Source of the DNA: Olsenella profusa F0195
GTDB lineage: Bacteria > Actinomycetota > Coriobacteriia > Coriobacteriales > Atopobiaceae
Direction: 5' to 3'
Assembly: GCF_000468755.1 (NCBI RefSeq)
Contig: NZ_AWEZ01000050.1
Span: forward strand, 1 to 64,000
Length of the DNA stretch: 64,000 nt
In this document: one piece after another, positions 54,235 to 61,298 of the stretch
Numbering within the stretch: position 1 is the first letter of the stretch
Layout of the letters: each line of letters opens with the position of its first letter
Notes under the pieces: generated by a model
What the model was told of the DNA's origin: nothing
What the model saw: only the letters and a program-made list of their open reading frames with translations
Databases searched by the model: none
Translations under genes and position numbers: made by a program

Positions 54235-57200
54235 ATGAGGGTTGACCCGTCCCAGCTCCAGTCCATCCTGGACTCCGACAAGACCAAGGCGCGACAGCAG
54301 GCCTATGCCTGCCAGGCACAGATCGATGCGGTGTACGACGTCGTCAAGTCGGATTCCAGGACCCAGGGGGCGGCGTATGACAGCGCCCGAGCCTACCTCT
54401 TGCGCGTGAAGCTTCCCGCCCTCCAATGCCAGTTCGTCTTTCTCGACACCCTCGTCGGAGACCTCGACTCGGACATCGCGGCGCTTGATGCGTTCGGTGG
54501 GGAGACGCTCGACTCCGAGGAGCTCGAGGCAAATATATCCCTGTACGATGGGCTCATCGACAGATTGTATAAGCAGCAACAGGAGCAGCAGAGCCTGCAG
54601 CGGGAGCAGTCCGCCGCGGGTCAGTCGACCGACGCGAGCCAGCGGTCGATCGAGTCGATCGAGCACCTTGCCCAAGTCTATGAGGGGGCCAGGGCCGAGC
54701 TGCAGAGGAAGCTCAAGGTTCTGTACGACTATACGGGCAACGGCTCCATCTACTCGGCATCCCAAGGCGAGGCGTCCCGCCTGAAGGAGGCGGGCGAGGC
54801 GCTGGGCCAGGTGGCCTATGACCCCCAGTCGCACACGTACGACCTCAGCAACGTGTCCGATGGCTCATGGAACAGCCAGGACATGCAGAGCAAGTACTGG
54901 CGGTCGGTCATCAACCTCATCCTCGACAACAAGGACGCACCGGCCTCCGTTCGCAAGTACGTCCTCAACGAGCTCAAGGGAACCAACGACAGCGCTCTCT
55001 TCGGGGGCGACCCCGTCAACCTCTCCACGGGAAACTTCATCCACCAGCGCGTCTTCCTGCGCATGGGTGGCCTGTTTCCGCTCTCGTTCTCGCTCTTCTA
55101 CAACTCGGTGGACGAGGGGGACGCAACGATAGGAAAGGGGTGGAGCCAGAACCTTGGTCTGCACGTGCTGCGCCATGACTCGGGCATGGTGAGCGTCCGT
55201 ATGGCGGATGGGCACGAGGCCCTCTTCTTTCCCGAGGGCGGCCAGTATGTCGGTGCCACCGTCGAGGGGTCGCTCACGCCTCGCGCGGAGGGCGGTTGGA
55301 GCTACACCGATGCGTTGGCAACGGAGTTCCTCTTTGACGCCGAGGGCACCCTCGTGCGGATGGTCGACGTGGACGGATCCGGGGCCGACCTTGCCTATGA
55401 CGAGAGCGGTCTGCTCGAGCGCGTCGTGAGCGTGTCGGGCGAGCGGCTCGACTTCCACCATGAGGGAGGCCTCCTTGTGCGCGTCAGCGACGCCACGGGC
55501 AGATCCATTGGCCTGGAGCATGAGGGCGCCCTGCTCGTGGCCCTTACCGACGAGCTGGGACACACCAGGCGGTACGGCTATGACCATCTGGGAAGGATGG
55601 CCAGCCTCACGAACCCAAGGGGCGAGGTGACCCTCAGGAACGCGTATGACGAGCATGGACGCGTGGCGCGCCAGGCGTTCGCCAACGGTGCCGAGATCAC
55701 CTATCGCTTCGACGAGTTGGGGCATGAGCTCACGCTCGTCGACCAGGAGGGCCACGAGAGCAGCTACGAGAGCGATGGGCTGTACCGGACGGTCGCGTAC
55801 ACCCGTCCCGACGGCACGGAGCGCTTCGAGTATGACCGGCGCAACCTCAAGACCGCCCACACGAGTAGGCTGGGGCACACGACACGCTTCCGGTATGACA
55901 GGGCCGGTCGGGTCCGCTCCATCACCAACGCTGCTGGTCAGACGCTTGCGTTCGAACGCAACGAGATGGGCCGTCCCCTGGAGGTCAGGCTCGACGGCAA
56001 GATGCTCGTACGGAACACCTTCGACGGACAGGGTCACCTCACCGTACGCGAGGACGCCCTGGGGAGGGCGGTGAGGCTCTCGTACGACGCGACGGGACGG
56101 CCCATCAGGCTGACCCAGCCGGACGGCAGCGTCGTGGTGCTGACGAGGGACGCGCGGGGCAACGTCACGCGCATCGAGGGAGACCCCGGCATCAGGGTCG
56201 ACTATGCCTACGACGAGCTGGGCAGGGTGGTGGCGCGGACGAACGCCGACGGAGGCGTCACGCGCTACGAGTATGACGCGCGCGGCAAGGTCGTCCGGGT
56301 GACCAACGCGGTGGGCGACAGCCGTCACTACCGCTATGACGCCTGTGGCAACATGGTCGAGATGCGCGACTACGACGGGCTCTCCCTGAAGCGCTCCTAC
56401 GACGCGTTCGGCCTGCTGCGCACCGCTACGGACAAGCAGGGTGGGACCTGCACCTTCGAGTACGACAGGCTCTGGCGGCTTGCCAGGGTCACCGACCCGC
56501 TCGGGGCATCGACCACCTATGCGTACGACCGGTTTGGACGGCTTGAGAGCGTGACGGACGCGCTCGGGGGATCCGTGCGCTACGAGTACGACGCGGATGA
56601 CCGCTGCACGCAGGTGACCTATCAGAACGGGGCGCAGGCCCACTTCGATTACGATGGCCTGGGACGCGTGATACGGGTGAGGGACTGCTCCGATGCGGTG
56701 ACGCACCTCACCTACAATCGCTTCGGCAGGTGGCGCAGGTCGTTGACCCCGTCGGCCATAGGCGTACGGCGGAGTTCGATGAGGTGGGGCAGCTCGTCGC
56801 CCTCACGGACGAGCTGGGGGCACGGACGCTCCTCGACTATGACGCCATGGGGCACGTGAGCGCCATCACCAACCCGCATGGCATGCGACAGGCCTATGAG
56901 TACCTGCCGGGCGGCCTCCTCGCCCGCACGCGCACCATGCGGGGCGTCACCTGGTCGTTCGCCTATGACGGGTGCGGTCGCCTGACAGGGCTGCGCCAGG
57001 AGGAGGGGGCGTCATGGTCCCTGACGCATGACCTGCTCGGGCGCGTGATCACGTCAACCGATGCCGTGGGCAACGAGACGTCCTACGCCTACGATGCGCT
57101 TGGGCACCCCGTCCGCGTCATGGACGCGGACGGATACGCGACCTCGTATGGCTACACGCCCACGGGCGCATTGCAGACCATCGGATATGCTGACGGCCGG

Positions 57201-59363
57201 ACGGTCGACTTCGGCTATGACACGCTGGGTCGGCTGATTGATGTCGAGGACTGGCGTGGCTCCACGTCGATCGAGCGCGACGCGGTTGGGCGCATGGTCT
57301 CGGTGGAGGACTGCTCCGGCAGCGTGGTGCGCTACGAGCGGGATGTGGCCGGAGAGCTGACGGGCCTCGTGTACCCCGATGGGGGACGCGTGGGATACGA
57401 GTACGACGACCAGGGCAGGCTCACGCGCCTGAGCGCACGGCACGGCTCGGTCTCGTACGAGTACGACAACCTGTCACGTCTCGTGCGTTCCTGCACGTCC
57501 GATGGCCTCGAGACGCGCTATGCGCGCGACGCCGTGGGGCGCATGACGTCCATGGCGCACCTCGATGCCATCGGCGAGCTCATGCACCTGGGCCTTGGCT
57601 ATGACGCCGAGGGAAACAAGGTGCGCAGGAGCGTACGGCACAGGAACCTGCCCGAGGGCGACGGCGAGCTTACCTATGCCTATGACGCCCTGAATCGCCT
57701 CGTTGGGGTCAATCGCGATGGCAGCCCCCTGCGCTCATATGGGTACGACGCGTTTGGTAACCGTGTATGGGACGAGCAGTTGGGTGAACATACCGACTAC
57801 GTCTATGATGCGGCCGATCGTCTGCTTCACATGACGAGGGACGGCAGGACGACCGACTTCTCGTATGACGGGCGCGGCAACCTGCGTGTGGTCTCTGGGG
57901 GCGGGCATGACGAGCGCAGCTATGACTATGACGCCACCAACCGCCTCGTACGGGCGACCTCCCAGGGGGACGGCACACGCACCGTGCGGTACGCCTATGA
58001 CGGTCTGGGCCAGCGCATCATGCAGAGCCTGGTTGATGAGCGTGATCCCGAGGGTGCACAGACGACAAGGTACGTGCACGACCTGTCGCGCGTGGGCAGG
58101 AACCTCTTGCAGAGGAGCGATGACTCTGGGTGCGAGTCCCTGGTGTGGAACGGCGCCCCCGTCGTCGCGTTCTCGGACTCCCGGACAAAGTGGTTCGCGT
58201 GCGACGAGCTAGGAAGCCCGCTCGAAGCGCTCTCGGCGGATGGTGGTTCGGTGGGTGCCGTTGGCTATGACGAGTTCGGCCAGGTGACGGGCGGTGATCC
58301 CTCGGCGCTCTCGGGCATCGGCTTCGCGGCCTATGGGCTGGATCCCGTAGCGGGCACGCTCTTTGCAGAGGCGCGCGAATACAGTCCACAGATGGGGCGA
58401 TTTGTGTCGCGTGACCGGCATGCAAGCATGGGTGGGGTGCCGCAGACGCTGAACAAATATAGCTATTGCTGGAACTCCCCGCTGGGGTACGTGGATGTCA
58501 ACGGCCTCTGGCCCACATGGCAGGATGTCTGTGATGGGGTTGAGTCAGTGACAGAGAGTGTCTTTGAGGGTGCCAATGAGGCATGGAATAACGTTTCGGA
58601 GCCTGTCAGGCAGGTCGTATCTGGTGTGTGCGCGAACGCCTTGCATGGATTGCGTGAGGTAGGGGAGTATGACTTCAAGGATGCGGCCGCTGATGTGGCT
58701 GCAAAGGTCGCACCCTTCTCTCCATGGGCTGCAGCGGGAATCTACGCTGCGGGCAATATGCCTTCTGCTGTCTTTGGCGTGAACGACATCAGTGACGTCG
58801 CTGCGGCCTTCACGCAATCACCCTTGGGCGAGCAGGCCCTCGATCTGGCCTCATTCAGCCGAGATGAGTATGGTGTCTATCATGCCAGGCAAGACTGTTG
58901 GCAGGCGCCCTTTGGCTACAATGATTTGTATGATGATGCGTTCAAGCAACTCACGTCGGCTCGACCAAAAAAGTTCGGTTTTACTGTTGATGGCACCAAC
59001 TACACCCTCTGGCTCTGGAAGGGTGACTACTTCAACCTGGGGGCGGGGGCGGAGTCCGGCATCTACAGGGGTAACGGCTTCCACCAGCAGTCTGCCACCG
59101 ACACGAACCTCTCCATGACGCTGAACCTGTATGACAAGGATGGCAACGTCATCTTCGTCTATGACCCAGGGCAGCCCAACTGGTGGACGACGGGCTTCAA
59201 CCCGGATGTGCAGGATGCCCACCAGGAGGACCTCATCGCCTATGGCTCGGTGGACTTCTCTGCCAATCCGGAGCTGTGGGATGCGTTCTATGCGGAGCAC
59301 TCTGGTGATCCTGGCTGGTGCTTCGACGAGGAGCGGAAGGTGGCGTACTATGCGTGGCAGTAG
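54235..59363 (+). pseudogene. LXG-Rhs polymorphic toxin-like protein with one frameshift
   Basis: The complete gene would code for ~1709 residues. Residues 1-200 look like an LXG-type T7SSb export domain (MRVDPSQLQSILDSDK, TQGAAYDSARAYLLRVKLPA, helices). A DUF6531-like start of the Rhs shell follows near 258 (GGDPVNLSTGNFIHQRVF), then ~40 YD repeats. The core ends near 1388 (AREYSPQMGRFVSRDRH ... YVDVNGLW). The C-terminal ~150 residues resemble DUF4474 (YNDLYDDAFKQL, LWLWKGDYFNLGAGAESGIY, WWTTGFNPDVQDAHQEDL). At 56725-56730 (GGCAGG before TGGCG) one base is missing: reading GGCAGGG would restore the frame. As it stands translation stops at 56859; a restart at GTG 56730 could give the second half. 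Confidence 0.8.
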
Positions 59364-59376
59364 AAGGAAACGAGCT

Positions 59377-59943
59377 ATGTCTTTACTCACCCTTGCCTTC
59401 TCGTCCCTACTCGTCCTCGCGGGCTGCAGGTCGCCCGAGGGCTACGGCCCGCGCTCCACGATGTCGGACGAGGACGCGTCGGCCACCTGCCTGGACGAGC
59501 TGTCCTCCCTCGTCGCCGACTCGGACGCCGACGGCCTCGTGGCGGCCTTCTCAGAGGGGGTGAGGTCAGCCAACCCGGGCCTCGCCGAACGGGCCAGCGA
59601 GCTCATGTCCACCATCGGCGGGGGCACGGTAGAGGACGGGCACCTCAACCAAAGCGAAGGCAGCATCGGCAGCGGGAGCATCTACGTCGTCAGCATCGCC
59701 ACGGTGACGGCGCCGGATGGCTCGGTGTGGCAGCTGCGCGCCACGGACTGCACGTTCAACAAGGACGACCCCGCGAGGGTCGGCCTGCGCACGGTGGAGG
59801 TCATACCGAACTCGGTCCTAGAAGCCCCGCGGGGATTCTCCTGGTACGGCACGGACGACGAGCGGTGGCCGACCGGCATCCGCCTCATCACGAGCTGGGA
59901 CGGCTGGGACCCCCACACCAGCCCGTACAGTCCTGACTGGTAG
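59377..59943 (+). CDS. Lipoprotein, candidate immunity protein, copy 1
   Basis: A 188-residue lipoprotein. The signal is MSLLTLAFSSLLVLAGC, with the lipobox Cys at 17. The mature part has CLDELSSLVADSDADGLVAAFSE and WYGTDDERWPTGIRLITSWDGWDPHTSPYSPDW, resembling DUF5104-type lipoproteins. AAGGA precedes the ATG. It begins 13 bases after the Rhs toxin gene, so it is co-transcribed. Its position directly behind the toxin and its surface location suggest immunity against an extracytoplasmic effect; this is inference. It shares a near-identical first 60 residues with the next gene. Confidence 0.7.
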   Translation: MSLLTLAFSSLLVLAGCRSPEGYGPRSTMSDEDASATCLDELSSLVADSDADGLVAAFSEGVRSANPGLAERASELMSTIGGGTVEDGHLNQSEGSIGSGSIYVVSIATVTAPDGSVWQLRATDCTFNKDDPARVGLRTVEVIPNSVLEAPRGFSWYGTDDERWPTGIRLITSWDGWDPHTSPYSPDW

Positions 59944-59955
59944 GGGGGTGACACC

Positions 59956-60534
59956 ATGGCAATCGTCGTCCCCCGCAGGTCCCTCCTCTCTCTCCTCGTC
60001 CCGCTCGTCCTCGCGGGCTGCAGGTCGCCCGAGGGCTACGGCCCGCGCTCCACGATGTCGGACGAGGACGCGTCGGCCGCCTGCCTGGACGAGCTCTCCT
60101 CCCTCGTCGCCGACTCGGACGCGGACGGCCTCGTGGCGGCCTTCTCGGAGGAGGCGAGGTCGGCCGATTCCGACTTGGCAGCTAAGGCGACTGAGGTGAT
60201 GTCGCTCATGGGCGGGGGCACCTTGGGCGATGGGGACTTCTGGTCGAGCCAGGGTAATGTGCGCACGGGGAGCATCTACATTATCAGCACGGCTACCGTG
60301 ACGGCGCCGGATGGCACAAGGTGGCAGATGCACGTTACCGACTGCACCTTGAACCGCGATGACCCCTCGAAGGTCGGTCTGAAGTCCATCGAGGTTATAC
60401 CGAACTCGGACTGGGATGCGCCTAAGGGGTTCGGTTGGTACAACGAAAGCGATGACTTCCCCGCCGGCATCCGCCTCATCACGAGCTGGGAGGGCTGGGA
60501 CCCCCACACCAGCCCGTACGATCCCAACTGGTAG
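59956..60534 (+). CDS. Lipoprotein, candidate immunity protein, copy 2
   Basis: A 192-residue paralogue of the preceding lipoprotein. The signal is MAIVVPRRSLLSLLVPLVLAGC. From the Cys on, ~48 residues (RSPEGYGPRSTMSDEDAS...) are almost identical to copy 1, then the two diverge (about 60% similar). GGGGGTGACACC precedes the ATG, 12 bases after copy 1. A recent tandem duplication with partial gene conversion explains the pattern. A second immunity allele or decoy is possible. Confidence 0.7.
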   Translation: MAIVVPRRSLLSLLVPLVLAGCRSPEGYGPRSTMSDEDASAACLDELSSLVADSDADGLVAAFSEEARSADSDLAAKATEVMSLMGGGTLGDGDFWSSQGNVRTGSIYIISTATVTAPDGTRWQMHVTDCTLNRDDPSKVGLKSIEVIPNSDWDAPKGFGWYNESDDFPAGIRLITSWEGWDPHTSPYDPNW

Positions 60535-60627
60535 GAAGCCCTGTTCGTCAGGGGCAACGGAGCGAAGCATGGTACAGTCTAGCCATACGGGAGGGCTGTT
60601 CCTGATGCGCGACGAGAGGAGAGCGTG

Positions 60628-60912
60628 ATGTCATCTTCGACCATAGCATCAAGCACGGATGCGGCTGGGGAGGCTGCTGACAGCCTCAAGGCTGGGCTTG
60701 ATGCCTACCGTTCGTTCAAGCTCGGGTCTGCGACAGGCGTCGCGGACGGCACCCCGCCAACCACCCATGACTCGATCTCCGATGCGGCATCCTCGTACTG
60801 CACGGCCTATGCCAGCGCGATGGAACGTGATGCGGAGGCATTCAGGCAGGTGGGCATCTCGCTCAACGAGGCGGACGCTATGGCCGCCTCAGACATACAG
60901 AACGCCTCATGA
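60628..60912 (+). CDS. Small helical protein, candidate LXG-effector helper
   Basis: A 94-residue mostly helical protein, MSSSTIASSTDAAGEAADSL ... AYASAMERDAEAFRQVGISL. Its size and two-helix, WXG100/TIGR04197-like pattern match the small proteins (Lap1 type) that bind LXG domains and take them to the type VII secretion system. AGGAG lies 6 bases before ATG 60628. Its stop overlaps the next start (ATGA). Position in the LXG-Rhs locus supports the role; no secretion machinery is in the window. Confidence 0.6.
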   Translation: MSSSTIASSTDAAGEAADSLKAGLDAYRSFKLGSATGVADGTPPTTHDSISDAASSYCTAYASAMERDAEAFRQVGISLNEADAMAASDIQNAS

Positions 60913-61298
60913 CGGCATACGATGCCTGGGATGGCGGGAGTTTCCACTCCCAGGGACCAACGTCACAGGCGGAGCCCAGGTTATCAGCCTCGATCGACAG
61001 GCGGCTGATGCGTCTGGAGGACGAGGAGTACTCCCTGAAAGGCAGGATACGGACCCTAGAGGACACCATGGAAGACGTCGATGCCTCGGTGAGGACGGTT
61101 GCCGAAAGGGTCTATGCCGGTGAGGACATGGGGCTGGATGCTTGGGGCGTGGACGAGATACAGCGCCTGCGCGCCTCCATCCTTGCGCACTGTGACGAAC
61201 AGCGGGAGCTGTCCTACCAACGCCTGCGTGCCATCGACCATGAGCGCGAGGCGCTGTACGACCAAAGGCGCAACGCCTGTCTGCGGGAGCGCCCCTGA
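60909..61298 (+). CDS. Coiled-coil protein, candidate second LXG helper
   Basis: A 129-residue charged helical protein with coiled-coil character (LMRLEDEEYSLKGRIRTLEDTMEDVDASVRTVAERVY, ELSYQRLRAIDHEREALYDQRR). It starts at 60909 inside the stop of the previous gene (ATGA), so translation is coupled. Two-gene pairs of this size (Lap1/Lap2) accompany LXG effectors in Streptococcus, normally upstream of the effector; here they are downstream of the lipoproteins. The function is inferred from this context only. Confidence 0.55.
   Translation: MTAYDAWDGGSFHSQGPTSQAEPRLSASIDRRLMRLEDEEYSLKGRIRTLEDTMEDVDASVRTVAERVYAGEDMGLDAWGVDEIQRLRASILAHCDEQRELSYQRLRAIDHEREALYDQRRNACLRERP

Follow-up and report, generated by a model that had tools for sequence, protein, structure and literature searches.

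The window analysed here comprised 64,000 nucleotides of Olsenella profusa F0195 (contig NZ_AWEZ01000050.1, positions 1 to 64,000), and the element under study was a predicted Rhs toxin module in its distal part. The host genome, G000, spans 2.72 Mb in 73 contigs with a G+C content of ~65%, and the complete genome G151 from the same species served as reference for strain comparisons. On the + strand, the module displayed a Rhs effector gene in two pieces, two lipoprotein genes and two genes encoding small helical proteins, at coordinates which the original prediction had given correctly to within a few bases. A scan for promoters and terminators uncovered nothing above chance. The features were the following:

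54235-56859, + strand: open reading frame (ORF) A, with the LXG-like domain, DUF6531 and the first part of the Rhs shell; leaves the frame near 56,727
54235-54930, + strand: helical LXG-like N-terminal export domain at the start of ORF A, from an alignment with nine relatives and hhalign against an LXG set
55006-55227, + strand: DUF6531 (PF20148), entry of the Rhs shell; E=4.2e-17, residues 258-331 of the ORF A product
56720-56735, + strand: frameshift of one base, from comparison with the intact orthologue of the same species; one-column alignment gap at 56,727
56730-59363, + strand: ORF B, with the second part of the Rhs shell, the Rhs-associated core, a linker and the DUF4474 tip, from domain matches
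58266-58508, + strand: Rhs_assc_core (TIGR03696), end of the shell; E=1.9e-13, residues 513-593 of the ORF B product
58866-59360, + strand: DUF4474 tip, predicted toxin, from the PF14751 match, conserved columns and a beta-rich model
59377-59943, + strand: proximal lipoprotein, DUF5104-like, best candidate for cognate immunity; 13 bp behind the tip gene
59956-60534, + strand: distal DUF5104 lipoprotein with an NTF2-like model, probably a supplementary immunity gene or an orphan one
60628-60912, + strand: helper 1, TIGR04197/WXG-related Lap candidate; TIGR04197 match over residues 7-89
60909-61298, + strand: helper 2, coiled-coil Lap candidate; four-base overlap with helper 1, a similar protein being paired with helper 1 elsewhere

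The C-terminal tip matched DUF4474 (PF14751) with 42.7 bits for a cut-off of 23 (E=6e-11), as had been proposed. Near-invariant residues included a Q, a D, a WLWKGDYxNLGAGAExGxY run and a WWxTG motif. Its structural model was a beta-rich domain, most blocks of which displayed a predicted local distance difference test score of ~90 or more, preceded by a poorly predicted helical linker. No significant fold match to this model was encountered among PDB and viral structures, and no significant match to the tip among PDB sequences.

The two lipoprotein genes were adjacent, both displayed a lipobox, and their products were 68% identical to each other. With respect to DUF5104 (PF17117, cut-off 27 bits), the distal lipoprotein scored over the cut-off (27.2 bits) and the proximal one under it (23.1 bits). 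The DUF5104 model was NTF2-like, in agreement with a match of the family profile to PDB entry 4r1k (E=1.8e-14) and with a fold search. NTF2 is a known immunity fold, referred to as Imm-NTF2 (PMC3482391), and immunity to the type VII lipase TslA is conferred by a lipoprotein (PMC10730906). The original designation of both lipoproteins as immunity candidates was supported.

Association between tip and lipoprotein was evaluated by a tip-only scan of one genome per species, covering 84,980 species. Twelve loci were gathered, two of which (L040 and L044) came from one strain, and in 11 of the 12 the adjacent downstream gene encoded a DUF5104 protein; the sole tip locus without it was the spirochaetal L046. 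The ten of these DUF5104 genes that were tested matched Pfam with E values from 1e-8 to 4e-36, and the remaining one (L044) is a near copy of L040. In the loci measured they started from 47 bases inside to 109 bases behind the tip gene, and their products displayed a lipobox cysteine in ten cases and a transmembrane-like anchor in one (L041). The carriers of the tip were diverse. Rhs proteins carried it in L037 and L041, a WXG/LXG-type protein in L036 (from weak matches) and an eCIS-core protein in L035; others were VWA/TSP3 or repeat proteins, of which those of L039, L042 and L043 displayed an apparent Sec signal and that of L040 was cut at the contig end. Despite their unrelated carriers, loci L035 and L036 had tip and lipoprotein in common (similarity 0.58/0.55). 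Globally, tip and lipoprotein similarities were correlated (Mantel r=0.73 for 11 pairs, and 0.61 for 10 pairs without G151).

Among 151 relatives, DUF5104 was found in 12 genomes and DUF4474 in six. Two of the DUF5104 genes without a DUF4474 call adjoined tip remnants (L058 and L059, judged by eye) and the others were solitary. Since DUF5104 genes thus occur beside tip remnants or alone, the tip predicts the lipoprotein and not the reverse, as for orphan immunity genes. As a separate observation, the solitary DUF5104 lipoprotein genes of genus g4 (L049, L051-L054) adjoined a conserved ATPase/helicase cluster resembling a defence island.

Comparison of the window with G151 uncovered a marked co-divergence of the tip (75.8% identity) and the proximal lipoprotein (62.3%). 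The other parts of the module displayed 99.6% identity in the N-terminal domain, 99.3% and then 94.3% in the shell, 92.2% in the distal lipoprotein, and 96.8% and 93.8% in the helpers. Because strain divergence centres on the tip and the adjoining gene, the proximal lipoprotein is likely the cognate immunity protein.

A surface-binding or adhesive role of the tip, with DUF5104 as a co-exported anchor or partner, would agree with its beta-rich structure devoid of a known enzyme fold and with the Sec-exported VWA/TSP3 surface-type proteins found among the carriers. This reading is nevertheless quite improbable: tip and lipoprotein are exchanged together between carriers that are unrelated, lipoprotein copies occur in tandem and as orphans, and strain divergence is concentrated in the tip and its proximal lipoprotein, all of which are patterns of polymorphic toxins. 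A toxin and its antidote are preferred here. DUF4474 and DUF5104 would form a cassette moving between LXG/WXG, Rhs, eCIS-core and Sec carriers, in which an envelope-acting tip, with a fold devoid of solved relatives, would be blocked by a lipid-anchored NTF2-fold protein; this is held as somewhat probable. No mention of DUF4474 or DUF5104 was found in the openly licensed literature searched, in which the pair appears undescribed.

Several members of the group carried shell-less effectors, in which the same N-terminal domain was fused directly to a divergent DUF4474 tip (L030 6990-8615, L032 4650-6281, L033 5497-7179, L034 5565-7208, L009 1087-2742 and L010 502-2166). A single lipoprotein family for all DUF4474 effectors was rejected, as these coriobacterial forms use another family.

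The effector had originally been described as one gene, and the interruption of its frame in this assembly had been overlooked. Because ORF A and ORF B lie in different frames while the G151 orthologue is continuous, a one-base frameshift was recognised: at the same place, G151 displayed an intact Rhs gene encoding one protein of 1,800 amino acids, from which the window differed by one alignment column at 56,727. The window gene is broken by this frameshift, real or from assembly, and intact copies exist. The two pieces were consequently analysed separately, and the intact G151 orthologue was used for comparison. In this assembly the split effector is probably not exportable, and the immunity and helper genes are intact. 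Near position 57041 of the window, the G151 shell was longer by 264 bases (88 codons), in frame, which is likely a change in RHS repeat number between the strains. Three genomes each displayed one Rhs effector gene broken by a frameshift or a stop, at different places: L026 5788-11011 in G151, L029 5943-10925 in G026, and position 56727 of the window. These may result from decay, phase variation or assembly error.

The locus could accordingly be regarded as a remnant disarmed in this strain, whose effector has decayed and whose lipoproteins, perhaps with the helpers, persist as an island of orphan immunity against toxin-bearing relatives. The frameshift indeed separates the export domain from the tip, broken Rhs genes were also encountered elsewhere in the group (the C61 orthologue of G151 is split and the G026 copy has an in-frame TAG), and orphan DUF5104 genes occur in several relatives. 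Such a remnant is nonetheless rather unlikely, for the rest of the module is intact, and the break is either very recent or an assembly error because nucleotide identity to the intact orthologue amounts to 98.9% up to 57,048.

The predicted Rhs shell was recovered in full, with 14 RHS repeat stretches in ORF A and 13 more in ORF B, besides the DUF6531 and Rhs_assc_core matches. DUF6531, RHS repeats, Rhs_assc_core and a variable C-terminal tip, which together characterize Rhs polymorphic toxins, were all found. As for the N-terminal domain, the proposed LXG export domain held as a distant homology but not as a direct match. The window protein did not match Pfam LXG (PF04740), so that a direct LXG annotation was rejected, and only two out of ten relatives of the domain matched this family weakly (best E=0.007). 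The alignment of the window domain with nine relatives, however, matched coriobacterial and clostridial LXG-type domains by hhalign (96.8%, E=2.3e-10, 181 columns), which points to homology over the whole domain at the profile-profile level. Within the set used for comparison, a single member itself exceeds the LXG cut-off, and the domain is therefore best named LXG-like. The L-x-G motif was absent from the domain, and the corresponding stretch read SRTQGAAYDSARAYL, with TQG in its place. As indicated by its distribution, the domain was present in seven of the 140 genomes of the family, all seven belonging to the set of 35 that encode an EssC homologue (P=4e-5 on the assumption of independent genomes, a value that ignores shared ancestry).

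The original prediction depended on type VII secretion genes, and their absence was ruled out by the discovery of a T7SSd locus, a type VII secretion subtype defined by Garrett et al. 2024 (PMC11217815). Five core genes were present in G000 and contiguous in G151: EssC/TsdC (carrying FHA and FtsK domains; interrupted in G000 by the end of a contig, whole in G151), the WXG100 protein TsdA, the kinase TsdD, TsdH and the Ig-like TsdI. From its gene content, the secretion system of this genome is assigned to T7SSd, with its core genes away from the window. Subtype T7SSb was rejected because no credible match to EssB/YukC (PF10140) or YukD (PF08817) was found in the genome.

Other proteins encoded near the secretion genes deserve mention. 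Two more type VII-type Rhs proteins were located behind EssC (L005 5697-10451 and 12859-17598; L091 5707-10563 and 12212-16942), one with a WXG-like N-terminal domain and the other with an LXG-like one; two helpers, one TIGR04197-like and one coiled-coil, precede the LXG-like protein. At the T7SSd locus, a DUF6382+FHA protein (L004 12294-13739 on contig C30 of G000; L090 7352-8797 in G151) resembled TsxJ, reported for T7SSe and T7SSf of Bacillota. It was preceded by a conserved protein of 93 amino acids in the position of the ubiquitin-like TsxB, which T7SSd reportedly lacks; this small protein displayed no YukD profile match. Finally, two Mbeg1-like lipase-type proteins of the T7SSd locus adjoined lipoproteins (L004 2903-4564 and 14414-15970; L090 5122-6678 and 17759-19438). 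Their C-termini look helical, and they resemble 'reverse' TslA-type effectors with lipoprotein immunity, here in an actinomycete.

The two small helical proteins proposed as Lap-type helpers were recovered, one with and one without family similarity. Helper 1 displayed a full-length TIGR04197 similarity of 19.4 bits (cut-off 26), and seven of the eight members of its family matched (best E=1e-5). Helper 2 had no family match, and only one of seven relatives displayed a partial similarity to DUF3958 (E=0.08). The gene order, considered atypical in the original prediction, indeed differs from that of published LXG clusters, which have Laps at the 5' end and immunity genes at the 3' end (PMC10730906). 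The order effector, immunity, helper 1, helper 2 was encountered at three unrelated chromosomal sites of the group (the window, C61/L027 and G026/L029), while other modules of the group displayed helpers in front of the effector. Their place behind the immunity genes, far from the N-terminal domain and contrary to the published order, could suggest that the helpers serve, or are left from, another type VII substrate. This seems doubtful, given that the order recurs at all three sites with no other effector seen beside, and assignment of the helpers to the present effector is retained.

Taken together, the locus is likely a module for a polymorphic antibacterial toxin that depends on the T7SSd, with an envelope-acting tip and lipoprotein immunity. 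The LXG-like domain would direct the effector to the TsdC/EssC ATPase, probably together with the two helpers in a co-targeting role, and the DUF4474 tip would travel as cargo of the Rhs shell. Once exported, the tip would act at the envelope of a neighbouring cell, either on the outer face of the membrane or in the wall. Protection of the producer would come from the proximal DUF5104 lipoprotein with its NTF2 fold, predicted to be anchored outside the membrane and to bind the tip, and the distal lipoprotein may protect against a related tip.

Several points weigh against this explanation. The effector gene is frameshifted in this assembly, its relation to LXG is a distant match lacking the L-x-G motif, and the tip displays no recognised catalytic fold. 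DUF5104 occurs also without DUF4474 and therefore its role need not be immunity everywhere, and the shell-less effectors with divergent DUF4474 are followed by a different lipoprotein family. Moreover, the effector locus is not beside the secretion genes, from which it is separated by lying on another contig in G000 and by ~0.7 Mb in G151 (1.64 Mb versus 0.93 Mb). Substrates of type VII systems are often, but not always, encoded at the secretion locus.

If correct, this interpretation assigns a joint and testable role to two Pfam domains whose function is unknown, as exported toxin tip and lipoprotein antidote shared by different delivery proteins and phyla. Natural counterparts that have or lack a Rhs shell behind one export domain should be useful for probing the role of the shell in type VII export. 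The likely T7SSd effectors would also be scattered around the chromosome, beyond the secretion locus alone.

With regard to known systems, the LXG-led Rhs shell is less rare than had been supposed. The architecture alone is ordinary for this group because such LXG/WXG-type Rhs substrates have been published (PMC10327511, PMC11217815) and at least three more were found in the same genome, one on contig C61 and two on C18; in domain surveys, too, the same toxins are listed with both RHS repeats and export of LXG/WXG type (PMC3482391). Less ordinary is the gene order, and the new result is the pair of tip and DUF5104 recurring on at least four different delivery proteins.

In Listeria, the Rhs type VII substrate LrhA with LrhI and LxpABC (PMC10327511) displays a similar succession of helical N-terminal domain, DUF6531, Rhs repeats and variable tip, as well as small helical partners and an immunity protein predicted outside the membrane. 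Unlike the window module, it belongs to T7SSb, its partner genes precede the toxin, it adjoins essC, and LrhI is a transmembrane protein without family. Closer in subtype and phylum are the Rhs protein adjoining the T7SSd of O. uli and the LXG-like toxin of Olsenella sp. HMSC062G07 (PMC11217815), which share with the window module the secretion subtype (predicted for the module), membership of Actinomycetota, a Rhs or LXG-like substrate and Lap-like neighbours. Both are encoded at the T7SSd locus, unlike the window module; the O. uli protein has an unknown tip and an immunity protein predicted to be cytoplasmic, in contrast to the lipoprotein candidates described here.

Staphylococcus aureus TslA-TilA with TlaA1/TlaA2 (PMC10730906) resembles the window module by type VII secretion, action outside the cytoplasm and lipoprotein immunity (all three presumed for the module), and by two downstream helpers. 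TslA is however a lipase whose targeting domain is C-terminal, and TilA belongs to DUF576 and not to DUF5104. TelC is an LXG toxin not known to carry a Rhs shell. With the window module, this lipid II phosphatase of T7SSb would share LXG-type export and action in the wall zone (PMC6193138). Lastly, Imm-NTF2 proteins (PMC3482391) share the NTF2 fold as immunity proteins of polymorphic toxin systems; they pair with Tox-NucA and Tox-JAB-2, whereas DUF5104 pairs with DUF4474 and is predicted to be lipid-anchored.

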